NCBI RefSeq assembly: GCF_002224265.1
Contig: NZ_CP012882.1
Coordinates: 558,001 to 622,000 of the forward strand
DNA: 64,000 nt
From: Vibrio vulnificus NBRC 15645 = ATCC 27562
Lineage (GTDB): Bacteria > Pseudomonadota > Gammaproteobacteria > Enterobacterales > Vibrionaceae
Direction of reading: 5' to 3'
Shown: in pieces, positions 2-14,605 of the stretch
Layout of the letters: each line of letters opens with the position of its first letter
Position numbering within the stretch: position 1 is the stretch's first letter
Program-made: the position numbers and the translations under genes
Notes under the pieces: model-generated
Told to the model about the DNA's origin: nothing
What the model saw: the letters and a program-made list of their open reading frames with translations, nothing else
The model's database searches: none

Positions 2-199
2 CTCATCGCGATTCGCCACCTCACTCAACGTGAGTTGCCTGTGCAAGATCTGGAAGGGTTCCCAGTCACAGACAAGCCTTCGACAGGCGAGAGCAAACGG
101 GCGCCTCGCGACAAAAAAGCCAACCGCCGCACGCAAAATAAAAAGAGCGTTAAGCAGTTTCAAGGTAAGGCGAAGCGCCCAGCGCCTAAAAGTAAGTAA
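2..199 (+). CDS. DEAD-box RNA helicase, C-terminal end only
   Basis: This open frame enters from the left edge and stops at TAA 197-199, leaving 65 residues. It starts LIAIRHLTQRELPVQDLEGF, which looks like the end of the second RecA domain of a DEAD-box RNA helicase. A tail rich in Lys, Arg, Ala and Pro follows (KRAPRDKK, KRPAPKSK), as is common in RNA-binding tails of these helicases. The frame is read from base 2. An apparent ATG reading frame from base 30 in another frame is a shadow. No helicase motif lies inside the window, so the family call rests on the tail alone. Confidence 0.6.
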   Translation, partial: LIAIRHLTQRELPVQDLEGFPVTDKPSTGESKRAPRDKKANRRTQNKKSVKQFQGKAKRPAPKSK

Positions 200-1637: not shown

Positions 1638-2102
1638 CTATTTAGTAAACTGTACGGTAGGGAGGACAACTCTTGGTAGTCTCATGCGTTCACATTGGGA
1701 ACTTAAGTATTCGCGCCAGTATGGCCAAACATGATAGCTAGCATTTTTCAATGAGAACGCATCGATGCATTCTTGTTCTAAATGAGCGTTTATTCTATAT
1801 TCCGCTATAAAATCGCTTTCAATAGCGGCTTTGATATCTGGCTCGCTTTCATCATCAGATGGTACTACCCATCGTGTACCAAGGCGCACGAAGACACGAA
1901 GTAGTTCACCGTCATCTTCAACCTGAATAGTTTCACTCTTATGAACAACGTGCATTTGTTGGATGTGTAGATGTTCCATCTCACTATATGATTTAGGATC
2001 AAAGTCATCAGCACAAAATGATCTTGAACTTTTCTGGTACACATCTTCAATTACTAGATTTTCAATGGCTTTCTGTAATTGGTTACTATTTTTAGTAGCC
2101 AT
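1638..2102 (-). CDS. SecB-like chaperone of a toxin-antitoxin-chaperone module
   Basis: The 154-residue acidic protein has the SecB fold pattern: alternating strands such as LLRVFVRLGTRWVV (residues 67-80), then a long helix with IAEYRINAHLEQECIDAF and a C-terminal helical part (VWPYWREYLSSQCERMRLPR). SecB-like proteins encoded after MqsR/MqsA pairs act as dedicated chaperones that protect the antitoxin from aggregation and proteolysis, so that toxin stays blocked (TAC systems, MqsRAC). The start ATG overlaps the end of mqsA by 11 nt, and GAGG precedes it, so it is translationally coupled. It could be confused with the housekeeping SecB, but the operon context argues for the TAC role. Confidence 0.8.
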   Translation of the reverse strand: MATKNSNQLQKAIENLVIEDVYQKSSRSFCADDFDPKSYSEMEHLHIQQMHVVHKSETIQVEDDGELLRVFVRLGTRWVVPSDDESEPDIKAAIESDFIAEYRINAHLEQECIDAFSLKNASYHVWPYWREYLSSQCERMRLPRVVLPTVQFTK

Positions 2103-2628
2103 AATTCGCCTCTAAGCCAAATTCATGTTGGTACACAACGTGAGTTCGCTTGATATTTGATTTTTCGTGGAAATTGACCACTGCTACTGTGGTCCAGTCG
2201 GCATCGATTTTGCGCTTAACGCCAGCATCAGCCATTAGTTTATCGAGAGAAGCTGGCACATCACGAGCGATTCTGATTAGTCTATCCATCGCTTCGGATT
2301 GCATTACGTCATCAGACTCGTATTTTGAAAATGCTACTGGACCACCGCCAAATACTTTAGCAGCATCTTCTTGACTGAAATTCCAGCCTTTACGTAGCTC
2401 ACGTACCTCAACTCCGGTCAAAAGGCCTTGAACTTGCTTTTTGAAAGCAATCATTGCACGTTTATTAAAACGAGCATTTGCAGGGGTTGCTTGTTCACTT
2501 CCACATACATCACAAGTTGAAAATTGACTAGTAATTGAACCTTGCTGTCCCATGTGTTCAACATGGATAACTTCTTCTTGGTCGCTCAAGTGACCTTGTT
2601 CGCAGATCGGACAAATTTTGGTTGTCAT
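2092..2628 (-). CDS. mqsA: MqsA-family antitoxin with C-terminal chaperone-addiction tail
   Basis: This 178-residue antitoxin has an N-terminal zinc-binding domain with two CxxC pairs (C6/C9 and C39/C42), a central Xre-type helix-turn-helix (GVEVRELRKGWNFSQEDAAK and the following VFGGGPVAFSKYE, about residues 72-105), and a C-terminal extension of about 40 residues ending YQHEFGLEANYGY. Solo MqsA proteins of the E. coli type are about 131 residues. The extra tail fits the chaperone-addiction region described for TAC antitoxins, which is bound by the SecB-like partner. It lies 10 nt after mqsR and overlaps the chaperone gene. It probably neutralises MqsR and represses the operon through its HTH. 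Confidence 0.88.
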   Translation of the reverse strand: MTTKICPICEQGHLSDQEEVIHVEHMGQQGSITSQFSTCDVCGSEQATPANARFNKRAMIAFKKQVQGLLTGVEVRELRKGWNFSQEDAAKVFGGGPVAFSKYESDDVMQSEAMDRLIRIARDVPASLDKLMADAGVKRKIDADWTTVAVVNFHEKSNIKRTHVVYQHEFGLEANYGY

Positions 2629-2638
2629 TGCTCAATCC

Positions 2639-3067
2639 TTATTGCGAGACGTGGCATGACACAAGTAAAAGAATTTTACCAGTCTTACCAATCGCAAATT
2701 TCACATAATAATTACAGCTCATATACTTATATGCATGCTCGCGCCACTCCTCTCTCTGTAAGCGGTAGCTATCACATGCTGCCCAAGGACCAGTTGGCTT
2801 TTGAACACACCATTCAGAATTCACGTATTGGCCTTGGGTTATGGCTTGTCTTAATAAATCTCGAATATCGTCAGTATCAAGTGCAAGTGATTCTATATCG
2901 TGTATACACTTGCGAGTCCAAGGGATAGTTGTATTCCCCTCAGATTCCAGAATTTTTAGAACGTCTCCTACCGCATACAATGGACCATCGATATGAATCC
3001 GTTTAGTCGTTGTGGCAGTGGGTGGTTCTTGTTCAAAAGCACTTACGTTGAATTGATTATTTACCAT
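2639..3067 (-). CDS. mqsR: MqsR-family mRNA interferase toxin
   Basis: The 142-residue protein ends with the MqsR core signature YVKFAIGKTGKILLLVSCHVS (strand-rich RelE-like fold). In this family that C-terminal region carries residues needed for ribosome-independent mRNA cleavage, for example at GCU sites in E. coli MqsR. About 25 extra N-terminal residues precede the conserved part (E. coli MqsR is 98 residues). The toxin gene comes first, as in mqsRA and unlike most type II systems. The start codon sits inside a perfect inverted repeat (3061-3075) that may be the operator. The toxin, zinc-HTH antitoxin and SecB-like gene together make a complete TAC module. Confidence 0.85.
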   Translation of the reverse strand: MVNNQFNVSAFEQEPPTATTTKRIHIDGPLYAVGDVLKILESEGNTTIPWTRKCIHDIESLALDTDDIRDLLRQAITQGQYVNSEWCVQKPTGPWAACDSYRLQREEWREHAYKYMSCNYYVKFAIGKTGKILLLVSCHVSQ

Positions 3068-3075: not shown

Positions 3076-3212
3076 GTTTTTCCAGTTGTTTTTATGAGAT
3101 TTGCATTTCGAAATCTAAAGAATGCGTTTGTTTTGCGTCCAATCTTACATGGTATGAAGTGCATATGGCAATGAACTGACCCAGCAATATTATTGTCAAT
3201 TGACTTTGTTCC

Positions 3213-3809
3213 TCACGTCTCACAACTCTCCGAAATTCTCAGCGCATCTTCAATCTCGACACCAAGGTATTCAATCGTACTTTCGAGCTTAGCATGACCC
3301 AGAAGTAACTGAATAGCCCTAAGATTCTTGGTTTTAGCGTAGATCAAAGAAGCCTTGGTTCGGCGCAGTGAATGCGTGCCGTATTGCGTTTTGTGTAAGC
3401 CGATATCGGTCACCCAGCGGTTCACTAGCGTGGTGTAGTAATGGTATGAAATCGGCTGCCCCTCACGGCGTGGACTGGGAAAGAGGAAGTCCGTTGGTGC
3501 CAACGCATTTTGAATGATCCACTGTGACAGTGTTTGTTGTGTCTTTGGTGTGATTTCGAAGTGTACCTCTTGCTGGGTTTTCTGTTGTTTAACAATGGCT
3601 CTCGACATCACACAACCACTGCGGCTGACATCTTGTACCTTTAGGTTCCTCAGATCACAAGACCTCAGTTTGCTATCAATGGCAAGATTAAACAGTGTCA
3701 ACTCAAACAAGCGTTCTTCAAGCTCTAAGCGAATTCGAATCCGCCAAATATCTTCTAGTTTGAACGCTTTTTTCTGACCAACTCGTTTACCTTTGTTCCA
3801 AGCCACCAT
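3213..3809 (-). CDS. Stand-alone tyrosine recombinase (catalytic domain only)
   Basis: The 198 residues match the catalytic domain of phage-integrase-family tyrosine recombinases. They contain R49 in KLRSCDLR, a candidate Lys near 77, the HxxR box THSLRR (H146, R149), the second His in LLGHAKLEST (H172) and the nucleophile Y181 (IEYLG). The usual N-terminal SAM-like DNA-binding domain is missing, giving about half the length of a phage integrase. It begins 110 nt from hsdM on the opposite strand. Such short recombinases often sit beside type I restriction genes in gammaproteobacteria. It may mobilise the island or rearrange local DNA; no inverted repeat for an hsdS switch was seen. Confidence 0.85.
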   Translation of the reverse strand: MVAWNKGKRVGQKKAFKLEDIWRIRIRLELEERLFELTLFNLAIDSKLRSCDLRNLKVQDVSRSGCVMSRAIVKQQKTQQEVHFEITPKTQQTLSQWIIQNALAPTDFLFPSPRREGQPISYHYYTTLVNRWVTDIGLHKTQYGTHSLRRTKASLIYAKTKNLRAIQLLLGHAKLESTIEYLGVEIEDALRISESCET

Positions 3810-3919
3810 GATGTGCTCCTTACTTCATAAAAATCCCTATTAAGTAAGGCAGAAATCAGTGAAAACCCCATGGTTACTGGTAGAATGCACGCAATATTTT
3901 CGAATCAAAGAAAACCGAA

Positions 3920-5623
3920 ATGAACCAACAAGAACAACTATTCCTGAAAGAGCTTGAAAGCAAGCTCTGGACTGCGGCAGACAAGCTGCGCTCAACGTTA
4001 GATGCAGCACAATACAAACACGCCGTACTTGGCTTAATCTTCGTTAAATACGTTTCTGATGCGTTTAAGCTGCGTCAGGAAGAGATCAAAGCAGACCTTG
4101 CTAACCCAGATCACGAATACTATCTAGATCCAGCCGACTTCTCAGAAGAAGAGTTGGCAGCCGAGATCGCCGTTGAACTTGAGCAACGCGACTTCTACAC
4201 CGAGAAGAACGTATTCTGGCTACCAACCGAATCTCGCTGGCAGTTCTTACAAGATAACGGCCCACGAGTGATTGGTGGTGCTGATCTTGAGATCGACGGT
4301 AAGGTGAAGAAAATCACTTCGGTTGGTCACCTGATTGATAACGCACTTGAGGGCATCGAACGCGATAACCCGAAGCTGAAAGGTGTATTGAATAAGTCAT
4401 ACTCTGCTTTGAAGATTGACCAAGCTAAGCTAAATGAGCTAATCAACCTGATTGCTACCATTCCGTTCGATCACAACTCTCTAAACAGTAAAGATATTCT
4501 TGGTCACGTATACGAATACATGCTTGGTCAGTTTGCTCTGGCTGAGGGTAAAAAAGGTGGTCAGTTCTACACGCCAGCGTCCATCGTATCGCTGATTGTT
4601 GAAATGATTGAGCCGTTTGAAGGCCGTGTGTATGACCCTGCAATGGGCAGCGGCGGTTTCTTTGTGCAATCAGAAAAGTTCATTGAGCGCAGAGCGAATC
4701 AAAAAGAAATCGACCCGCTGACGCAAAAGCGAAAGATCTCTATCTACGGTCAGGAATACAACCACACCACATGGCAGCTAGCAGCGATGAACATGGCGAT
4801 CCGTGGTTTGGATTACGACTTTGGTAAAGAGCCTGCCAGTACTTACACCAACGTTCAGCACCCTGATTTACGTGCCGACTTCATCATGGCGAACCCACCG
4901 TTCAACATGAAAGAGTGGAACACAGGCGTAGATGATAACGACCCTCGCTTTAAATACGGTAAACCGCCAGCAGGTAACGCGAACTTTGCGTGGATGCAGC
5001 ACATGCTTCACCACCTAGCGCCAGATGGTTCTCAAGCGTTACTACTAGCAAATGGCTCAATGAGTTCAACCACCAACAACGAGGGTGAAATTCGTAAAGC
5101 GCTTATCGAGAACGATCTTATCGAGTGCATGGTGGCACTACCGGGTCAACTGTTTACCAATACCCAGATCCCTGCGTGTATTTGGTTCCTAACTAAGAAT
5201 AAAACCGCTCGCACTGATAAAGCGGGTCGTAAACTTCGTGATCGTAAAGGTGAAGTGCTGTTTATTGATGCGCGTAACCTTGGCTACATGAAAGACCGCG
5301 TTCTGCGTGATTTCACTCGTGATGATATTCAGAAAGTCGCTGACCTTTACCACGCTTGGAAAACTGGTGCAGAAGTGAATGGCATCACTTACCAAGAGCA
5401 AGCTGGTTTCTGTAAATCAGCAACCCTAGCAGACATCATCAAGCATGATTTTGTGTTAACTCCGGGACGTTACGTTGGAGCAACTGAAGAGCTAGATGAC
5501 GGCATTCCATTTGGTGAGAAGATGGCAGCGCTAACCGCTAAGTTGAGCGAGCAGTTCGCTGAGTCAGCAACGCTAGAAGCGGAGATCAAGAAGAACCTAG
5601 CGGGGTTAGGTTATGCAATCTAA
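3920..5623 (+). CDS. hsdM: Type I restriction-modification DNA methyltransferase (M subunit)
   Basis: This 567-residue subunit methylates adenine (N6) in the target set by HsdS, and is required for both modification and cleavage. It has the N-terminal helical HsdM domain (ESKLWTAADKLRSTLDAAQY), the AdoMet motif YDPAMGSGGFF (about 238-248) and the amino-methyltransferase motif IV NPPF (325-328). It opens an operon hsdM-hsdS-helicase-TPR/OB-hsdR. It overlaps hsdS by 11 nt, which couples their translation. No catalytic residue appears damaged. Confidence 0.97.
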   Translation: MNQQEQLFLKELESKLWTAADKLRSTLDAAQYKHAVLGLIFVKYVSDAFKLRQEEIKADLANPDHEYYLDPADFSEEELAAEIAVELEQRDFYTEKNVFWLPTESRWQFLQDNGPRVIGGADLEIDGKVKKITSVGHLIDNALEGIERDNPKLKGVLNKSYSALKIDQAKLNELINLIATIPFDHNSLNSKDILGHVYEYMLGQFALAEGKKGGQFYTPASIVSLIVEMIEPFEGRVYDPAMGSGGFFVQSEKFIERRANQKEIDPLTQKRKISIYGQEYNHTTWQLAAMNMAIRGLDYDFGKEPASTYTNVQHPDLRADFIMANPPFNMKEWNTGVDDNDPRFKYGKPPAGNANFAWMQHMLHHLAPDGSQALLLANGSMSSTTNNEGEIRKALIENDLIECMVALPGQLFTNTQIPACIWFLTKNKTARTDKAGRKLRDRKGEVLFIDARNLGYMKDRVLRDFTRDDIQKVADLYHAWKTGAEVNGITYQEQAGFCKSATLADIIKHDFVLTPGRYVGATEELDDGIPFGEKMAALTAKLSEQFAESATLEAEIKKNLAGLGYAI

Positions 5624-6908
5624 TTGGTCAATTGTCGCATTGAGCGATGTACTTGAAACCATTATTGACTACCGTGGAAAAACTCCGCCAAAATCTAAAG
5701 ACGGTATCGCCGTGCTTACCGCCGCTAGTGTGAAGGATGGCCGCGTACTGAAGGATAAAGTTTCTTATATTTCTCAGGAAACGTACGAAAAAGTCACCAC
5801 TAGAGGTTTCCCAAAAAAGGGGGATGTACTAATTACAACCGAAGCTCCCGTTGGCGAGGTGGCTCCATTTCCAGTAGATAAAACTTATCATATCACCCGT
5901 CGCATCATGGCTTTAAGAGGACAGTCTGATGTGATCGATTCTGATTTTCTTTTGTATGCTCTTTTAGGCCCTAACAATCAATCTCAACTAAAAGCATGTA
6001 TTAGAGGATCAACAGTACCTAGAGTATTGAAAACTGATATTACAGGGTTGAAATTTCCTCTCCCTCCTTTGCTTATTCAAAAGCAAATTGGTCGATTTTT
6101 AGCTTCAGTTGATGAGAAAATCCACCTAAATAATCAAACCAACCAAACTCTAGAACAAATGGCGCAAGCTATCTTTAAGTCATGGTTTGTCGACTTCGAT
6201 CCAGTCAAAGCCAAGATGAATGGTGAACAACCGGAGGGTATGGATGCGGCTACCGCCTCGCTATTCCCAGAAAAGCTAGATAGCGAAACTGGTATTCCTG
6301 TTGGCTGGAGTCAGGGCGTGATTGCAGATATTGCCAAAGTCAATGCGAAGTCATGGACAAAGAAAAACCAACCCGAACAAGTTCACTATGTTGACCTAGC
6401 AAACACAAAAAATGGTGTAATTGAAACAGTCACAAGTTATGACTTCAGTGAAGCGCCATCACGAGCGAGAAGAATCTTGAACTCTGGGGATACCATTGTT
6501 GGCACTGTTCGTCCGGGAAATCGATCTTTTGCATTTATCGGTGATACAGAACAACCACTTACAGGTAGCACAGGCTTTGCTGTTTTATCGCCAAAAGAAG
6601 AGTGTTGGACATCGTTTGTTTACCTAGCTACTACCAATGATGACTCTATTGACGAGTATGCTCGTTTAGCTGATGGTGGTGCGTACCCTGCAATTAAACC
6701 CGTAGTTGTTGCCGATACTCCATGTGTAATCCCTACAACAGATATTGCTCAAAAATTCTGGCAGCTTACAGGAGCGATGTTGAAGAAAGCTCATCAAAAT
6801 CGCCTTGAGAATGAAGAACTGGCTAAGCTACGTGACACATTGCTTCCTAAATTGCTTTCGGGCGAAATCGAGTTAGGGCTTAATGAGGCAGTGGAGCTTG
6901 AAGCATGA
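5613..6908 (+). CDS. hsdS: Type I restriction-modification specificity subunit (S subunit)
   Basis: The 431-residue protein has two variable target-recognition domains (about 1-150 and 225-375). Each is followed by a conserved helical spacer: PLPPLLIQKQIGRFLASVDE with the coiled segment to WFVDFDPVKAKM near 205, and a second near the C-terminus with LRDTLLPKLLSGEIEL. HsdS sets the bipartite DNA site recognised by the M2S and R2M2S complexes. The specificity cannot be read from sequence. It overlaps hsdM at its start and shares 4 nt (ATGA) with the helicase gene downstream, so all are co-translated. Only one hsdS copy is present. Confidence 0.95.
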   Translation: MQSNWSIVALSDVLETIIDYRGKTPPKSKDGIAVLTAASVKDGRVLKDKVSYISQETYEKVTTRGFPKKGDVLITTEAPVGEVAPFPVDKTYHITRRIMALRGQSDVIDSDFLLYALLGPNNQSQLKACIRGSTVPRVLKTDITGLKFPLPPLLIQKQIGRFLASVDEKIHLNNQTNQTLEQMAQAIFKSWFVDFDPVKAKMNGEQPEGMDAATASLFPEKLDSETGIPVGWSQGVIADIAKVNAKSWTKKNQPEQVHYVDLANTKNGVIETVTSYDFSEAPSRARRILNSGDTIVGTVRPGNRSFAFIGDTEQPLTGSTGFAVLSPKEECWTSFVYLATTNDDSIDEYARLADGGAYPAIKPVVVADTPCVIPTTDIAQKFWQLTGAMLKKAHQNRLENEELAKLRDTLLPKLLSGEIELGLNEAVELEA

Positions 6909-9673
6909 GTTTCTTCGCCTATCGTGCTGCGCCTTTTGAGTTTACCCACGAAAATAAAGTGTTCAATCGCCTTTATGATTTGTTGTATCAAGCATGGGGA
7001 AACCGAGATGAATCGCTACATTTGATCGGGAATGTTTATGTTGCAGGGCGTCCAGTAGATGCCCTTGTGATTAAGCATAATGCCATTGTTGTGATTGATT
7101 TTAAGGACTACGGCGGCGAGATTGCTTTCAGTGAAAATGGTCGTTGGATGGCTGGTGACGTTACTGTAAAAGGTGGCGGCAGTGTTAACCCGTACCAGCA
7201 AATTCGCAATAACAAGTTCTCTTTGCTGAACTACCTTCAAGAGCAAGTGACGTTTCAATCTGAGCCGAATCTTGGGCATATTGCTGGCTTGTGCCTCTTT
7301 CATCAAGACATCCATTTTGATGAGAAGCAATTGCCATCAGGAATTAGTCGATGGTTCCATGTTGCAGATGTGGCGCATTCGGTAAGAACACTAGAGTCGC
7401 TGGCAAGTCCGGCGATTAACTTGGCTCCATGGGAAATTGAACACATCATTGAAAAATTGGCAGTTTCGCGTTTTTACCCAGATGGAGAGGCAGTTAAAGT
7501 GAAGACTGGCGAGTCATTGAGAGAAAGAACCGAGCCAGTTGAGATTAATGATTGCTTTCAAGGTGTGGATTTAACCGAAGGGCAAAAGAATGCTATTGCG
7601 GGTATTGGTGCTTTTCTTTCTTCCAACGGTTTTGGAGGCTATATCCTCCATGGTTATGCAGGTACGGGTAAAACCTTTATTGCTAAAGGGATCGTTGACT
7701 TTGTTACGAGGCAAGGCAAGAGCTGCGTGCTGATGGCACCGACAGGTAAGGCAGCCAAGGTTATTGCAGAAAAAACGAACCATCATGCGTCGACAATTCA
7801 CAAAGCGATTTACGACTACTCAGATGCTTTTGATGATGACTCTGAAGCTCATGTACCTGTTGCCACCATAAAGCCAAATAATGACGGCACAGACACGGTT
7901 TATATCGTAGACGAATCCTCGATGCTGTCTGATGTGTTCTCTGGCACTGATAATATTCAGTTTGGCTCAGGCTATTTATTACGAGACTTGCTTATGTACG
8001 TCCGTGATGGTGGTCAACAAGCACAACGTAAAATTATTTTCATTGGTGATGATGCCCAGTTGCCCCCTGTTGGTATGCGTAGCTCTCCTGCATTAGATGC
8101 CAATTATTTGCGTGAGAAGTACGCATTACCATTAGCCGAATCAACCTTAGAGGAAGTCGTACGTCAAAAAGCGGGGAGCGGTGTCATGGATAACGCATTG
8201 GTATTAAGGCATGCGTTAGACACTGATACTTTCAATGAACTTGATTTTAATACGACAAAAGCGGATATCGAGTCGTTGTCTTCTGATGTATTTATCGAAC
8301 GCTACATGGCTCTGTGTGAAAAGCAGATTTCGAAAACAAAAGAGGTGGTGATAGTCGCTCACTCTAATGCACAAGTTGATTCTTATAATCGCCGTTGCAG
8401 AGAGATCTTTTTCCCTAACCACTCAACGTTATGTGCAGGAGATAAAGTCATAGCTGTAGCAAACCATTATCGAAATGATATCACTGTGACTAATGGTGAA
8501 TTTGGTTTGGTGCGCCAGTTGTTGTCAGAACCAGAATCTAGGGTTGTTACTTTTAACAAAAAGCTAGAAGACAAAAGTACTGAAAAGGTGACTGTTAACC
8601 TAACATTTCGTGATGTGGAAATTCTTTTCCGTGATGAAAGCGGCTCTCCAATTTCGGTCACAGGCAAAGTTGTTGAACACTTACTTTATAATGATAAGGC
8701 GTCGTTAACCTCAGATGAAAGCAAAGCATTATACGTCGATTTTTTGAATCGTAATCCGCATTTACAACGAAAAGGGATGAGCGATGAGCGTAAGCAAGCT
8801 CTGAAAGATGATCCTTACTTTAATGCATTTAAAGTCAAATTTGGTTATGCGATTACATGTCATAAAGCGCAGGGCAGTGAGTGGCAACATGTATTAGTGA
8901 ATTGTTATTCCCCTTATCAGAAAACGTTATCTCGTGATTATTTTCGTTGGCTGTATACCGCTATCACTCGTACTGCCCAGAAGCTGTATGTACTTAATGA
9001 GCCGACGGTTCGAATTGGTGAAAAACCTGATATTGTGGGTGACACAAGTTGGATGAACGAAAGTGACTCAATAAGACCAATAGATGTCCCCACCAATTCA
9101 GTGGAGCTTGTACTAGAAGGTTTTGATATCGATTTGGACTCTTCTCTTGGTCATCTTTACAAGAAAGTACAACTCTCTATTGGTGACAGCGGAATCAAGC
9201 TCACTGACATTCAACATTTTCCGTATAGAGAACGGTACATGTTCACGGCAGACAACCAATTTGCTGACGTTGAGTTTATCTATAACGGTAAGAATGTCGT
9301 ATCAAAGGTTAATGTTCGTGGAACGGGTTTGCTCGCAACCATGTTACAAACATTGCTAGTGCCACTCGAAGGTATGGTGATGTCTACCTATAAACAAAAT
9401 CAACATGATAAGGCATTTGATTTTTTAGATGATCATCTTGAAGTATTTCATAAGCGTGTTGTAGAAGTTTTCTCTGCTCATGAAATAGCAGTAGCCGAAC
9501 TCTCGCAGAACCAGTGGGTACAACGATATACATTTGCAAATAATGGTGAAACGGCAGTCATCGACTTCCATTACAACGGCAAAAAACAATTTAAAAAAGT
9601 GACGCCATTAGTCAATCTTAGTAGCTCTAAGTCTTTGCTGTCTCAGGCAGTACGGATTTGGAGCGAAGCGTAA
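6905..9673 (+). CDS. NERD-domain nuclease fused to an SF1 (RecD-like) helicase
   Basis: This 922-residue protein begins with a NERD-type nuclease-related domain (about 10-130: VDALVIKHNAIVVIDFKDYG has the family D...D-x-K pattern; then NPYQQIRNNK). It continues with a superfamily 1 helicase: Walker A GYAGTGKT (250-257), Walker B VDES (335-338), motif III GDDAQLPP (381-388), motif V with TCHKAQGSEW, and motif VI YTAITR (684-689). A C-terminal part of about 220 residues carries a duplicated module, with RERYMF/FIYNGK and VQRYTF/FHYNGK as matching blocks. It sits between hsdS and hsdR, starting in a 4-nt overlap with hsdS. DNA unwinding and cleavage are likely activities; a defence role is inferred from location. 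Confidence 0.9.
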   Translation: MSFFAYRAAPFEFTHENKVFNRLYDLLYQAWGNRDESLHLIGNVYVAGRPVDALVIKHNAIVVIDFKDYGGEIAFSENGRWMAGDVTVKGGGSVNPYQQIRNNKFSLLNYLQEQVTFQSEPNLGHIAGLCLFHQDIHFDEKQLPSGISRWFHVADVAHSVRTLESLASPAINLAPWEIEHIIEKLAVSRFYPDGEAVKVKTGESLRERTEPVEINDCFQGVDLTEGQKNAIAGIGAFLSSNGFGGYILHGYAGTGKTFIAKGIVDFVTRQGKSCVLMAPTGKAAKVIAEKTNHHASTIHKAIYDYSDAFDDDSEAHVPVATIKPNNDGTDTVYIVDESSMLSDVFSGTDNIQFGSGYLLRDLLMYVRDGGQQAQRKIIFIGDDAQLPPVGMRSSPALDANYLREKYALPLAESTLEEVVRQKAGSGVMDNALVLRHALDTDTFNELDFNTTKADIESLSSDVFIERYMALCEKQISKTKEVVIVAHSNAQVDSYNRRCREIFFPNHSTLCAGDKVIAVANHYRNDITVTNGEFGLVRQLLSEPESRVVTFNKKLEDKSTEKVTVNLTFRDVEILFRDESGSPISVTGKVVEHLLYNDKASLTSDESKALYVDFLNRNPHLQRKGMSDERKQALKDDPYFNAFKVKFGYAITCHKAQGSEWQHVLVNCYSPYQKTLSRDYFRWLYTAITRTAQKLYVLNEPTVRIGEKPDIVGDTSWMNESDSIRPIDVPTNSVELVLEGFDIDLDSSLGHLYKKVQLSIGDSGIKLTDIQHFPYRERYMFTADNQFADVEFIYNGKNVVSKVNVRGTGLLATMLQTLLVPLEGMVMSTYKQNQHDKAFDFLDDHLEVFHKRVVEVFSAHEIAVAELSQNQWVQRYTFANNGETAVIDFHYNGKKQFKKVTPLVNLSSSKSLLSQAVRIWSEA

Positions 9674-9702
9674 TTAAGTAAAAATATAGAGCTGAATTTT
9701 CA

Positions 9703-11157
9703 ATGTCAGAACAACCATTTCGTACTGTTACAAACTTGCGCAAAGCAGGTAATTTACAAGAAGCATGGAATGTCGGCTTTGCTGCATTAGAACACTCCCC
9801 GCAAGATGCGTATCTCAAAGGTGCATTATTTTGGGTGTGTTATGAATTTATCAAGCAGCAACAAGAAAGAATTTCGAAACGCGCAGCTTCTTCGAATAAC
9901 TTTAGACCTAGCGACTTTGAATTTGAGCGTATAGAAAACTTGCTTCAAACCATCGTGAGTTTTGATATTCCAACGGGCGGGTTGGAATATAAGATGCTGC
10001 TAGTTCAATTCAAAAAGAATCTTGAGTGGTTCCCAAGCCTAGTTAACTTGGTGCTGCACCATCAAAGCGCGTTGTTTGATGATGAAAGCAAAAAACCTTT
10101 TCAAGCCGAGAAAGGAGAAGTTCCTAGTTTAATGCTATCTACGGCTCGTCAAGTTGCTAGCGCTTGGCTACGTGCTCGTGAGTTTTGGCAACTCGATCTT
10201 AATCAGGTTTTGGGGTTTATCAATCAAACGCGTCAGCAAGTGGCAGATACGAAACACTTGATTTGGCTCGACTACGATCAATCAAAATGTTTGATTGTAT
10301 CTGGTCAATATGAACAAGCTCGCGAACTATTGTTGCCAATCCTGCGAAAAAAACAGAAAGAAGCATGGGCTTGGGGAGCATTGGCCGCAACCTATCAAAA
10401 GCAAGACCGTAGCTTAGCACTGAAGTTTTTTGCAAAGGGAATCGTCTCTGCTCATGATGTCACATTCAGTTTAAAGCTGCTTCAGGGGGCGATCCCGCTG
10501 TTGCTTGCTAATCAGCAACCTACAGAAGCGTCAATGTGCTTAAAGACAGCGTTGCAGGCATACCAAAGTAATGGCTGGAAAGTAAAGCCAGAGCTTGAAC
10601 AGTTGATGAATCAACCATGGTACGACGCCAGTGTAGATGAAAATGAACTGAAAGCGTTTTTAAAATCACTTTGTCGAGATGCCATTGAATATCTTCATGG
10701 CCCAACCGAGAAAGTCATTGGCGTTATCGAGAACATTCATAAGTCTGAAAAAGGCTTTCAAGTTTTTGTGAATAAATCCACCACATGGTCTGTCCGCATG
10801 GGCATACACAAAAGTAGTCTGAAACCTCAAGCGGGTGACTATGTTGAGTTGTCACTCTCTATGAATGGCACTGAGAAAGAGGTGATAGCGTCAGTTCCGT
10901 GCCAGTCTGTTGAACTTGCGGATGTTGGCACTATTGAAGGTGAACTTCGCATTGCTCCGAAAGGCTTTGGGTTCGTAGAAGATACGTTTGTTCCGCCTTT
11001 TGTTATTGGTGATATCGCTAATGGATCACGTGTAACGGTATTACGCATTATGGCGTGGGATAAAACGAAAGCTCGTCATAACTGGAAAGCAATCAAACTT
11101 GAACAGGTTGAGGTTGTATCAACATTAATGCCTGATTTTGATGATATTCCATTCTGA
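9703..11157 (+). CDS. Helical-repeat protein with C-terminal OB-fold/cold-shock-like domains
   Basis: The function of this 484-residue protein is not known to me. Residues 1-310 are helical and TPR-like (VTNLRKAGNLQEAWNVGFAA; ARELLLPILRKKQKEAWAWG; AATYQKQDRSLALKFFAKG). Residues about 335-400 and 405-475 look like two beta-barrel OB domains. The second, GTIEGELRIAPKGFGFVEDT followed by FVPPFVI, has the KGFGFVxD box of cold-shock/S1-type nucleic-acid-binding folds. No nuclease or ATPase motif is visible, so it may act as a nucleic-acid sensor or adaptor. It is 29 nt after the helicase gene and 14 nt before hsdR, in the same operon. The fixed embedding suggests it works with the NERD-helicase. 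Confidence 0.75.
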   Translation: MSEQPFRTVTNLRKAGNLQEAWNVGFAALEHSPQDAYLKGALFWVCYEFIKQQQERISKRAASSNNFRPSDFEFERIENLLQTIVSFDIPTGGLEYKMLLVQFKKNLEWFPSLVNLVLHHQSALFDDESKKPFQAEKGEVPSLMLSTARQVASAWLRAREFWQLDLNQVLGFINQTRQQVADTKHLIWLDYDQSKCLIVSGQYEQARELLLPILRKKQKEAWAWGALAATYQKQDRSLALKFFAKGIVSAHDVTFSLKLLQGAIPLLLANQQPTEASMCLKTALQAYQSNGWKVKPELEQLMNQPWYDASVDENELKAFLKSLCRDAIEYLHGPTEKVIGVIENIHKSEKGFQVFVNKSTTWSVRMGIHKSSLKPQAGDYVELSLSMNGTEKEVIASVPCQSVELADVGTIEGELRIAPKGFGFVEDTFVPPFVIGDIANGSRVTVLRIMAWDKTKARHNWKAIKLEQVEVVSTLMPDFDDIPF

Positions 11158-11171
11158 GTGGTATGTATTGA

Positions 11172-14100
11172 ATGAAAATTACAGAAGACCAACTAGAGCA
11201 GCTCTGCCTTGACTGGTTTACCGACCAAGGCTACCTATACAAAAATGGCTACGACATCGCCCCTGATGGCGATTCACCAGAGCGTGATGATTACCACCAA
11301 GTTGTGTTGAAACAGCGCTTACTGGAGCGTTTAGAGGTGTTGAACCCTGAATTGCCACAAGAGAGCTTGGATGTGGTGCTGAATACGGTCAGTACGCCAG
11401 ACACGCCAGTGCTGATTAAAAGCAACCGCGCTTTCCACAAGTACCTAATTGAAGGTGTGCCTGTTGAGTACACTGTGTATGAAGACGGTGAAACCAAGAC
11501 TAAGCACACTCATGCTCGCTTAATGGATTTTACCAATCCAGATAACAACGAGTTTCTGGTGGTGAATCAGTTCACCATTACAGGTAAAAAAGGCAATCGT
11601 CGCCCAGATGTGGTGGTGTTCATCAATGGTTTGCCTATTGCGGTTATCGAGCTGAAAAACCCTGCCGACGAACATGCGGACATTTGGCATGCTTACAACC
11701 AGCTTCAAACCTATAAAGATGAAATCCCAGATCTGTTCGTTTTCAACGAATCTTTGGTGGTGAGTGATGGCTGGACAGCGCGTGTTGGCTCTCTCACCGC
11801 AAACAAAGAACGTTTTTTGCCTTGGAAAACCGTCTCAGGTGAAGATGACAAACCACTTTGGGATTACCAGCTTGAAACCATGGTTAAGGGTTTCTTCAAG
11901 CCTGATTTGCTGCTTGATTACATTCGTTACTTTGTCTTGTTCGAAACCGACAACGACACCGTTATCAAGAAAATTGCTGGTTACCACCAATTCCACGCCG
12001 TGCGAGCGGCTGTCGAGGCCACCGTACGTGCAAAACAAGCCGATGGCGAACTGCCTTTAGTTGCTGAAAGCATGGGGCAGTACCAAGTTCAAGCGACAAA
12101 AGGCTTAGATAAAATCAAGCCCGGCAGTGGTAAAGCGGGTGTGGTTTGGCATACGCAAGGCAGTGGTAAAAGTATCTCTATGGTTTGCTACGCAAGTAAA
12201 CTATTGCAACAGCCTGCGATGAACAACCCAACGATTGTGGTGGTGACAGACCGCAATGATCTTGATGGTCAGCTTTTTAATACCTTTGGTATGGCGCATG
12301 AAACGCTTAAGCAAGTGCCATCGCAAGCGGACGGTCGTGATAAGCTGCGTGAATTGCTGCTCTCTCGTCAGTCTGGCGGCATCATCTTTACCACAATCCA
12401 GAAGTTTGCCCTACTTGCAGAAGAAACAGAGCACCCAGTGCTATCAACGCGTGCCAACATCGTAGTGGTATCGGATGAAGCGCACCGCAGTCAGTACGGC
12501 AACAAATCAAAGTTGGTGGACGTGAAAGACGCTAACGGCAATGTCATCTCTCAAAAGTTTGTCTATGGTTACTCCAAGTACATGCGTGATGCGCTGCCAA
12601 ATGCATCGTTCATTGGCTTTACGGGAACACCCATTGCTATGGATGACAAAGACACCCGTGGCGTATTTGGTGAGTACGTTTCTATCTATGATATTCAAGA
12701 TGCGGTCGATGATGGTGCTACGGTGCCAATCTACTATGAGTCTCGCTTAGCCAAGCTTGATATCAACCAAGCTGAAATCGAGCAGCTTAATGACCAAATC
12801 GAAGATGAGATTGGTGAGGATGAAGAGACTGCGAGCCGCGAGAAAATCAAATCTCAATGGGCAACGCTTGAAAAGCTTGTTGGCGCAGAGCCTCGAATCC
12901 AGCAAGTAGCTCAGGACTTGGTTAATCACTTTACCACGCGTACCGAAACGTTTCCCGGCAAAGCCATGATTGTGGCGATGAGTCGTGAAATCTGTGTCGA
13001 TCTCTACAATGCGATTGTTGCGATTAAACCAGAATGGCACAACGATGATCCCGCTAAAGGCGCTATCAAAATTGTCATGACAGGCAGCGCATCTGACAAA
13101 GCTAAGATGCAGCCACACATCCATGATAAGAAAACCAAGAAGCTCTTTGAAGCCCGATACAAAGATACTAGCGACGAGCTAAAGTTGGTGATTGTACGTG
13201 ATATGTGGCTAACAGGCTTTGATGCGCCGTGTTGCCATACCATGTATGTCGATAAGCCAATGAAAGGTCACAACCTGATGCAGGCTATCGCACGCGTAAA
13301 CCGCGTTTTTAAAGATAAACCGGGCGGTCTGGTAGTTGATTATATCGGGATCGCCAATGAGCTGAAAAACGCACTCAAAACCTACACCAATAGCCAAGGT
13401 AAAGGGCAACCAACAGTCGATACTGCCGAAGCCTTTTCCGTGCTGATGGAAAAGGTTGATATCGTTCGCGGCATGTTTGCGACTCCAGTTGATGGTAAGG
13501 TATTTAACTACCGTCCTGACTTCGAAACCGAGGCTTTACGCTTACTGCCCGGTGCGGTAAACCACCTATCTGGTTTGTCACATACCGATAGCAAAGGTAA
13601 AGAAGTGCGCGATGGCAAACGTCGATTCCTAGATGTGATGGCTGCGCTGGGTAAAGCGTACTCGTTGTGTAACACCATGGATGAAACGCGTGGTTACAAG
13701 AACGAAATCGCCTTCTACTCTGCGATTAAAGCTGCGTTCATGAAGCATTCTACTGTTGATAAAAAGCGTACAGATGAAGAGCGCAATACGGCTTTGAAGC
13801 AGATCCTCGATAATGCGGTGATTGCTGATGGTGTCGATGACATTTTCTCAATGGTTGGTTTAGATAAGCCTAACATCGGTTTGCTTTCTGAAGAGTTCTT
13901 AGAAGATGTAAAGAACATGAAGGAGAAAAACCTTGCTGTTGAGTTGCTTGAGAAGCTTCTGCGTGATGAAGTCAAAGCGCGGATGAAAAACGATGTGGTG
14001 CAAGAGAAAAAATACTCAGACCGCATTTTGACGACACTAAACAAGTACCACAACCGTAGCATCGAAACCGCTCAGGTCATTGAAGAACTGATCCAGTGGG

Positions 14101-14429
14101 CGAAAGAGATGCAGGAAGATGCGGAGCTACTTGATAAGCTGAACCTTTCTGTGGATGAGATGGCGTTCTACCGTGCTTTGGTTGAAAACGAGTCTTCAGT
14201 ACGTGAGCTTGGCGATGATGCTTTGCGTAACTTAGCGATTGAGTTAACAGGTCAGCTTCGTAAATCAGCCACGGTTGACTGGCAGAAGCGAGAAAGCGTC
14301 CGCGCCCGTATGCGCAACCTAGTACGCCGACTGCTGCGCCGCTGGAAGTACCCACCGGATGCGGCAGAGGAAGCTATCAAGCTTGTTCTTGAACAAGCAG
14401 AAGTGCTGGCTGACGGTTGGTATAAGTAA
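11172..14429 (+). CDS. hsdR: Type I restriction endonuclease (R subunit)
   Basis: The 1085-residue motor and nuclease subunit completes the R-M system. The N-terminal PD-(D/E)xK nuclease motif is visible as PDVVVFINGLPIAVIELKNP (E160, K162). A superfamily 2 translocase follows, with Walker A TQGSGKS (328-334), DEAH box (435-438), the FTGTP segment and the late motif QAIARVNRVF. A helical C-terminal domain binds the methyltransferase. Length is normal for HsdR and no frameshift is seen. It is the last gene of the operon and is followed by a strong terminator. It cuts unmodified DNA after ATP-driven translocation. Confidence 0.97.
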   Translation: MKITEDQLEQLCLDWFTDQGYLYKNGYDIAPDGDSPERDDYHQVVLKQRLLERLEVLNPELPQESLDVVLNTVSTPDTPVLIKSNRAFHKYLIEGVPVEYTVYEDGETKTKHTHARLMDFTNPDNNEFLVVNQFTITGKKGNRRPDVVVFINGLPIAVIELKNPADEHADIWHAYNQLQTYKDEIPDLFVFNESLVVSDGWTARVGSLTANKERFLPWKTVSGEDDKPLWDYQLETMVKGFFKPDLLLDYIRYFVLFETDNDTVIKKIAGYHQFHAVRAAVEATVRAKQADGELPLVAESMGQYQVQATKGLDKIKPGSGKAGVVWHTQGSGKSISMVCYASKLLQQPAMNNPTIVVVTDRNDLDGQLFNTFGMAHETLKQVPSQADGRDKLRELLLSRQSGGIIFTTIQKFALLAEETEHPVLSTRANIVVVSDEAHRSQYGNKSKLVDVKDANGNVISQKFVYGYSKYMRDALPNASFIGFTGTPIAMDDKDTRGVFGEYVSIYDIQDAVDDGATVPIYYESRLAKLDINQAEIEQLNDQIEDEIGEDEETASREKIKSQWATLEKLVGAEPRIQQVAQDLVNHFTTRTETFPGKAMIVAMSREICVDLYNAIVAIKPEWHNDDPAKGAIKIVMTGSASDKAKMQPHIHDKKTKKLFEARYKDTSDELKLVIVRDMWLTGFDAPCCHTMYVDKPMKGHNLMQAIARVNRVFKDKPGGLVVDYIGIANELKNALKTYTNSQGKGQPTVDTAEAFSVLMEKVDIVRGMFATPVDGKVFNYRPDFETEALRLLPGAVNHLSGLSHTDSKGKEVRDGKRRFLDVMAALGKAYSLCNTMDETRGYKNEIAFYSAIKAAFMKHSTVDKKRTDEERNTALKQILDNAVIADGVDDIFSMVGLDKPNIGLLSEEFLEDVKNMKEKNLAVELLEKLLRDEVKARMKNDVVQEKKYSDRILTTLNKYHNRSIETAQVIEELIQWAKEMQEDAELLDKLNLSVDEMAFYRALVENESSVRELGDDALRNLAIELTGQLRKSATVDWQKRESVRARMRNLVRRLLRRWKYPPDAAEEAIKLVLEQAEVLADGWYK

Positions 14430-14433
14430 ATAT

Positions 14434-14460
14434 AAAGGCAAGGTTGATACCTTGCCTTTT
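14434..14460 (+). terminator. Terminator of the hsd operon
   Basis: AAAGGCAAGG (14434-14443), loop TTGATA, CCTTGCCTTT (14450-14459): a 10-bp perfect stem just past the hsdR stop, ending in Ts. It marks the right edge of the restriction operon. Confidence 0.88.
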
Positions 14461-14605
14461 GCATATTTATGCCATCCAGACGGTTTCTTGTGATTTATGA
14501 AAGTTTCATTAGCCATATATGAGCTAATGGTTTGGGTGCTATCCGGTGCCGTAGCTCTAAATGATAAATGCCCAAAAACGTTTGCCATCTTACTATCCCT
14601 CATCA

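Follow-up and report, generated by a model that had tools for sequence, protein, structure and literature searches.

What two additional genes do between hsdS and hsdR of a type I restriction-modification (R-M) operon is the question raised by a 64,000-nucleotide stretch of Vibrio vulnificus NBRC 15645 = ATCC 27562 (NZ_CP012882.1, positions 558,001 to 622,000 of the forward strand), hereafter the window, which is part of the smaller contig of a 5.0 Mb genome in two contigs. The genes encode a NERD-domain helicase and a TPR/OB-fold protein, and the initial annotation of this DNA had presented them as the best candidate for an undescribed system, either a second defence layer or a modifier of the restriction complex. 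With a probability that we put at about 0.75, the pair is a NERD-type TOTE/PDC-M16 conflict system, which a mobile type I operon carries in its hsdS-hsdR slot as exchangeable cargo.

The gene pair and its operon

The first gene of the pair (6905..9673, plus strand, 922 aa) matches the PADLOC profile PDLC04474, the NERD form of PDC-M16A, with 1153.2 bits over residues 1-921, and the second (9703..11157, plus strand, 484 aa) matches PDLC04480, PDC-M16B, with 816.8 bits over residues 1-469. Judged by its sequence, this adjacent pair is a member of PADLOC PDC-M16, a phage defence candidate, with which it has the two adjacent genes and the domain make-up in common, with no tested difference. The PADLOC phage defence candidates derive from 'guilt-by-embedding' (PMC10855318, PMC12988326). 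The pair also combines what defines TOTE systems (TPR, OB, TBP, Effector; a name attributed to Aravind, Iyer and Burroughs 2022 in PMC12458937), namely a DUF7017/TPR-like protein with an S1/CSD OB fold, TBP-like domains and an effector domain, here NERD fused to an SF1B helicase. In view of these near full-length matches and TOTE domains, the system can no longer be called undescribed: it had been catalogued by others as a candidate defence family, apparently an unproven one. A search of the open-access literature for PDC-M16, TOTE or NERD-TPR defence returned no assay of the pair, although its partial coverage makes this weak evidence of absence.

The PDC-M16A protein comprises a NERD domain (residues ~1-205), a RecD2-like SF1B helicase core (~214-720) and TBP-TOTE domains (~736-922), seen in Pfam as NERD, AAA_30/UvrD_C_2 and two TBP-TOTE stretches. 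The NERD match at residues 34-114 scores 34.3 bits (cut-off 22.1; 3.7e-8), and the two TBP-TOTE stretches at the C-terminal end, TBP-like domains that the initial annotation had missed, score 114.9 bits (cut-off 27; 1.2e-33). The helicase core reaches 147.9 bits with the RecD2 model TIGR01448, under its 500-bit cut-off, and the Walker A, Walker B, III, V and VI motifs are found in 16 of 17 helicase homologues, the window's included. The D...DxK residues of NERD (D52 and D65-x-K67), which we take to be catalytic, are kept in the window, in Vibrio hibernica and in a stand-alone Acinetobacter NERD protein. A search of solved structures with the helicase returned four sequences, a 'putative deoxyribonuclease' (9kwf), RecD (3e1s), Deep-Sea Helicase 9 (8jx6) and Dda (3upu), and the best of these four matches covers residues 221-515. 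The partner protein matches DUF7017 (143.4 bits, 5.9e-42) and S1CSD-TOTE-2 (63.2 bits, 2.2e-17), both above cut-off, and TPR_19 just below it (24.4 bits against 25); its C-terminal end is an S1/CSD-like OB fold by family match, and the structure search with the TPR/OB profile found no solved-structure relatives.

The surrounding genes are those of a type I system, as had been annotated. The methyltransferase subunit gene hsdM (3920..5623, plus strand, 567 aa) matches N6_Mtase (6.4e-107) and HsdM_N (1.5e-21) in Pfam; hsdS, for the specificity subunit (5613..6908, plus strand, 431 aa), matches Methylase_S (1e-23) and PADLOC Specificity_I (310 bits); hsdR, for the restriction subunit (11172..14429, plus strand, 1085 aa), combines the Pfam families HSDR_N, SWI2_SNF2 and T1RH-like_C and matches NCBIfam TIGR00348 (630 bits, above cut-off) and PADLOC REase_I (1161 bits). 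All three being together and in open frames, hsdM, hsdS and hsdR qualify by sequence as type I R-M genes. The arrangement of the five genes at 3920-14429 was likewise borne out: they lie on one strand with ATG starts and open frames in the order hsdM-hsdS-helicase-TPR/OB-hsdR, with overlaps of 11 nt (hsdM/hsdS) and 4 nt (hsdS/helicase, ATGA) and gaps of 29 nt between the helicase and TPR/OB genes and 14 nt between the latter and hsdR. The strong terminator proposed for the operon is plausible. A perfect 11-bp hairpin, the probable operon terminator, does stand just after hsdR (14434..14459). Only a minus-strand call came from the pattern scan, however, and since terminator-like sites in the region are as many as chance predicts (10 found, 9.9 expected), stem length alone distinguishes this hairpin.

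A slot with changing cargo

Relatives of the hsd operon were found in Vibrio, Photobacterium, Shewanella and Proteus; a distant hsdR search of E. coli genomes gave 760 records, none covering 80%. We compared 24 loci of the hsd family, composed of 13 of the 20 plasmid records with an hsdR at least 80% identical (H95, H106, H107 and four others were left out), nine other genomes at 81% or more, V. hibernica and the window. The TOTE pair fills the slot between hsdS and hsdR in three of them: the window, Shewanella sp. LC6, where HrgA follows, and V. hibernica, where RhuM/Fic follows. Other loci have HrgA (seven loci; the gene is broken in L134, and L136 is degraded, with no hsdM found and hsdR in pieces), DUF4268 (six, one with a hypothetical gene and one with a Fic gene), SIR2 (two, one with a hypothetical gene) or PD-(D/E)XK (two) at this place, and a mixed set, a pair formed by an ankyrin gene and a 193-aa gene, Fic/RhuM and an empty slot occur once each. 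In PADLOC, DUF4268 corresponds to PDC-S11 and the ankyrin gene of locus L014 to PDC-M72A, HrgA has no match in Pfam or PADLOC and the partner of the ankyrin gene has none in Pfam. In nine more distant relatives (L155-L163, L160 being without hsdM and hsdS), the slot is either empty or occupied by genes of SIR2-like, AAA-like, Fic, DUF4268 or other kinds; the ankyrin assignments of L085 and L146 and the AAA assignments of L156 and L159 were made by eye from the first residues. Extra genes between hsdS and hsdR, often defence-like, are thus recurrent, as the initial annotation had stated, and of its two proposals for the pair the second defence layer is the probable one and a modifier of the restriction complex a possible one. 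In one genome of the same genus (G497), a TOTE pair of the DUF4145 type stands alone on one contig (L085), and another contig (L149) has the hsd operon with DUF4268 cargo.

The borders of the slot were mapped by blastn against six relatives with other cargo. On the left, the last similar position is 6876-6877 for three relatives and lies at 6277-6309, inside hsdS, for the other three; on the right, the match starts again near codon 3 of hsdR, at 11178 for five and at 11194 for one. The cargo slot would accordingly extend over 6880..11177 (plus strand), from the 3' end of hsdS to codon 3 of hsdR. On five Shewanella and Vibrio plasmids hsdR is 98-99% identical to that of the window, in the same operon with other cargo; such near-identical hsdR genes with different cargo are natural matched pairs in which the contribution of the cargo and its dependence on the restriction enzyme could be measured. 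The hsdS-hsdR site has been called a potential recombination hotspot (PMC12255303), a remark that the slot described here extends. Single genes or gene sets of seven kinds, defence-like in most cases, replace one another in the slot, which provides a defined setting for the functionally unproven TOTE/PDC-M16 family.

The outer edges of the operon point to a larger exchanged unit. Among eight relatives compared, the match starts at 3208-3217 in seven and at 3811 in L140, and it stops at 14460-14472 in the seven whose stretch reaches that far, so that an apparent transfer unit of recombinase, hsdM, hsdS, slot, hsdR and hairpin spans 3208..14472. The tyrosine recombinase (3213..3809, minus strand, 198 aa; Phage_integrase, Pfam 1.9e-17) is divergent from hsdM, and it is full-length in 12 of the 24 hsd-family loci and partial in three, the window counted, with the other copies 77-99% identical. 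In a same-genus genome, window positions 2-186 and a yiiM-like gene lie 1.8 kb apart, against 14.5 kb here, and the window block would therefore be an insertion or a variable region. In L141, a V. crassostreae plasmid, similarity reaches further left, from window position 1571: to the left of the recombinase, at 1641-3067 of the window, there are three genes on the minus strand, one of them for an MqsA-type antitoxin, and the same three-gene order is found at L141:2281-3710.

Settings and modular make-up of the pair

Relatives of the pair itself were found in Vibrio, Aliivibrio, Shewanella and Psychromonas and on enterobacterial plasmids. The partner gene was detected in 4 of 61 relatives searched, one of these matches being weak and partial; within the genus it was detected in 1 of 37 genomes, the window's own, and a TBP-TOTE search yielded two further genomes of the genus. 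The DUF7017 model was rejected as a survey marker, with matches in 57 of 369 class genomes, in only 13 above cut-off, that we read as mostly TPR noise, and the PF22721 model was used instead. TBP-TOTE matches were obtained in 3 of 369 genomes of the class, 22 of 394 of the order and 5 of 398 of the phylum, the window's genome included each time; with such low counts the pair is sporadic. Eighteen of the 22 order genomes were opened (the remainder being G541, G660, G717 and G787); hsd was found in none of the weak matches among them (L087-L095, L098), of which L091, L093, L095 and L098 had no reference-protein match. The partner gene is 60-80% identical in 54 of 68 matching plasmid records, and megablast of the pair against E. 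coli genomes gave no match at megablast sensitivity. In two pairs of DUF4145-type relatives, one of them near saturation, dN/dS is 0.06-0.14 for both genes; for the window's own pair genes dS is saturated.

Both settings, with and without hsd genes, were met among 17 homologous loci, the window included, around which we searched with the proteins of the window's hsd family only, so that divergent hsd genes could escape in the loci scored as alone. Type I genes surround the pair in six (the window, L004, L013, L012, L015 and L083): in L012, which was scanned, McrB- and McrC-like genes come after an EcoEI-like operon, the gene order of L015 is identical, and in L083 the pair belongs to a third type I operon, which also has an ankyrin gene. 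Two loci are BREX-like: directly beside the pair, L084 has PglZ and a PglX-like methylase, and L086 has PglZ and an unscanned 1136-aa gene resembling the PglX of L084, with a GmrSD gene between the two. L016 has only an HsdS-like fragment and HrgA, and no recognised hsd genes were seen in the remaining eight (L002, L005, L006, L014, L017, L085, L096 and L102), where the L096 contig is only 6.3 kb long and L005 ends with its record. Stand-alone pairs without annotated hsd genes occur on chromosomes as well as on IncR and IncY plasmids, and in L002 and L003 (an IncR plasmid of Klebsiella and an IncY plasmid of E. coli) a DUF4145-type pair lies close to stbA. An obligate role as a type I subunit was considered and is argued against by the 11 of the 16 other loci with no intact hsd gene by the pair (the two BREX-like loci and the one with the HsdS fragment among them).

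The ankyrin gene and its ~195-aa companion follow the TOTE pair in L014 (11473-13277), L085 (11621-13412) and L083 (11777-13583), and stand alone in the hsdS-hsdR slot of L146. A phage-borne origin of the pair was not supported: one of 50,697 phage records, an unverified faecal scaffold, matched the partner at 22.7% identity over 95%, and a viral_contigs scan with the window helicase, which reaches close relatives only, found none. On that scaffold (L008:6948-10380, MT835724.1) a divergent helicase gene of the pair's family adjoins a TPR/OB gene.

Comparison of the homologues suggests a modular make-up. Of the 17 helicase homologues, only those of the window and of V. hibernica have this NERD domain (73% identity); in V. 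hibernica the PDC-M16A homologue lies at L013:7264-10005, in the same hsd operon and with NERD conserved. The other 15 have a DUF4145-like (HEPN) N-terminus, DUF4145 being above the Pfam cut-off in P0007, the one DUF4145-type TOTE protein scanned; DUF4145 is a HEPN family that is also fused to RecD-type helicases (PMC3710099). The helicase core of V. hibernica is only 23% identical to the window's, with a partner protein 70% identical; it has no Walker A threonine, Walker B DE or motif VI arginine and looks ATPase-dead. The opposite divergence is seen in L084, with a helicase core 48% identical and a partner match of 22% over 193 residues. These two cases are most simply read as independent exchange of the two genes, and of domains inside the first. 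A swap of NERD and HEPN on a conserved partner, together with a dead-looking helicase homologue, suggests which parts may be essential. In the phylum sample, a truncated 3-kb contig (L103, G913) has a weaker NERD-helicase match (50 bits) and the start of a partner gene.

Coupling to restriction and known systems

The pair is most likely an autonomous or back-up defence module that targets nucleic acids and uses the slot as cargo. As the families suggest, the TPR-OB partner and the TBP-like domains would bind a nucleoprotein intermediate or the nucleic acid of an invader, the RecD2-like helicase would load and translocate, and cutting would fall to the N-terminal NERD domain, in whose place most relatives compared have a HEPN-type domain. 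Phages that escape type I restriction would in this way meet a second line of defence. Co-transcription with hsdM, hsdS and hsdR would give shared expression and transfer, and not necessarily a physical coupling.

Several points weigh against a module of this kind. NERD activity and the nucleic-acid target are assigned from families, and the ATPase-dead-looking core of V. hibernica is a poor fit to a helicase needed in every member. Besides, a type I or BREX-like operon contains or adjoins the pair at five of nine strong order-sample loci (two TBP-TOTE matches near 60 bits or more), for which the binomial probability is 1.1e-6 at a background of 2.5% (1e-8 to 3e-5 over 1-5%), and 2.5e-5 at 2.5% for four of eight when the window is omitted, these background rates being assumptions. 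Because embedding exceeds what a neutral passenger would show at such backgrounds, a real coupling of the pair to the restriction enzyme is possible.

The main rival to an autonomous module is a PrrC-like release on failed restriction, which we hold to be unlikely: intact HsdMSR would keep the pair inactive, a phage anti-restriction protein that disables HsdMSR would release it, and the embedding would be functional. In favour of such a guard are the repeated occurrence of the pair within type I operons, in three contexts, and next to PglX/PglZ-like genes, the strong loci just counted and the precedent of PrrC, which is embedded in a type Ic operon; HEPN domains in the vicinity of R-M genes have been proposed to act alike (PMC3710099). 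However, the same slot is used by unrelated cargoes, 11 of the 16 other loci lack an intact hsd gene and defence genes cluster anyway. The statistics also weaken over all matching order genomes, to 1.8e-4 at 2.5% for 5 of 22, four of them unopened (2e-6 to 4e-3 over 1-5%), and, with the window left out (4 of 21), to 1.7e-3 (5e-5 to 0.02, the latter at 5%). On trees of the helicase and the partner the embedded state requires at least four changes each, the starred branches forcing three, and shuffles as low as observed were obtained in 37 of 500 and 80 of 500, respectively, so embedding is scattered, with no strong clustering. L013 sits on a very long branch of the helicase tree, L086, whose partner reads in two frames, was excluded from the partner tree, and the L014 partner misses its first 37 residues in the frame found.

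A further proposal, as doubtful in our estimate as the guard itself, is a split one, in which the TPR-OB partner would be the fixed sensor and the nuclease arm would be swapped (NERD or HEPN), the whole being repeatedly installed in type I or BREX-like operons and its nuclease released when methylation-based restriction fails. If true, it would be the PrrC-like principle with a different, exchangeable machinery, with a helicase that is live or, in V. hibernica, apparently ATPase-dead.

Quite improbable is an accessory processing factor, a helicase-nuclease that would degrade HsdR-cut DNA or otherwise alter type I restriction; a RecD2-like core (below the model cut-off) and a NERD domain beside an endonuclease, in overlapping genes, would suit it, but the same family occurs without hsd, its N-terminus switches to a HEPN-type domain and the pair is absent from 21 of the 24 loci of the window's hsd family. 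Most improbable of all is that the pair serves some purpose other than defence or is a simple passenger, retained for the stability of a plasmid or island; the copies close to stbA on the two plasmids opened would speak for this, and against it stand the recurrent restriction-operon context and the cataloguing as a defence candidate.

Among known systems, TALON (PMC12458937) has a NERD nuclease, TPR-CSD and TBP components in common with the window pair. TALON, however, uses a YprA-type helicase and is largely confined to Chloroflexota (PMC12458937), whereas the core here matches RecD2 and no YprA or DUF1998 is among the family matches listed, and membership was rejected. DarTG2 of the RptR island of enteropathogenic E. 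coli (EPEC) occupies the same hsdS-hsdR slot with different domains (PMC12255303). Unlike in that island (PMC12255303), no TAGCTA occurs in the 319 bp upstream of hsdM (seven in the whole window, 6.6 expected), and an RptR-type control region was discarded; the 110 bp between recombinase and hsdM are too short for the 79-aa rptR, and small open reading frames are listed only upstream of helicase genes. The closest parallel in setting is TgvAB of V. cholerae VPI-2, likewise a two-gene defence system embedded in a vibrio type I operon (PMC11411939). TgvAB is a GmrSD-like type IV enzyme whose domains differ from those of the window pair, and tgvAB alone protects, although less than the whole cluster against several phages (PMC11411939).

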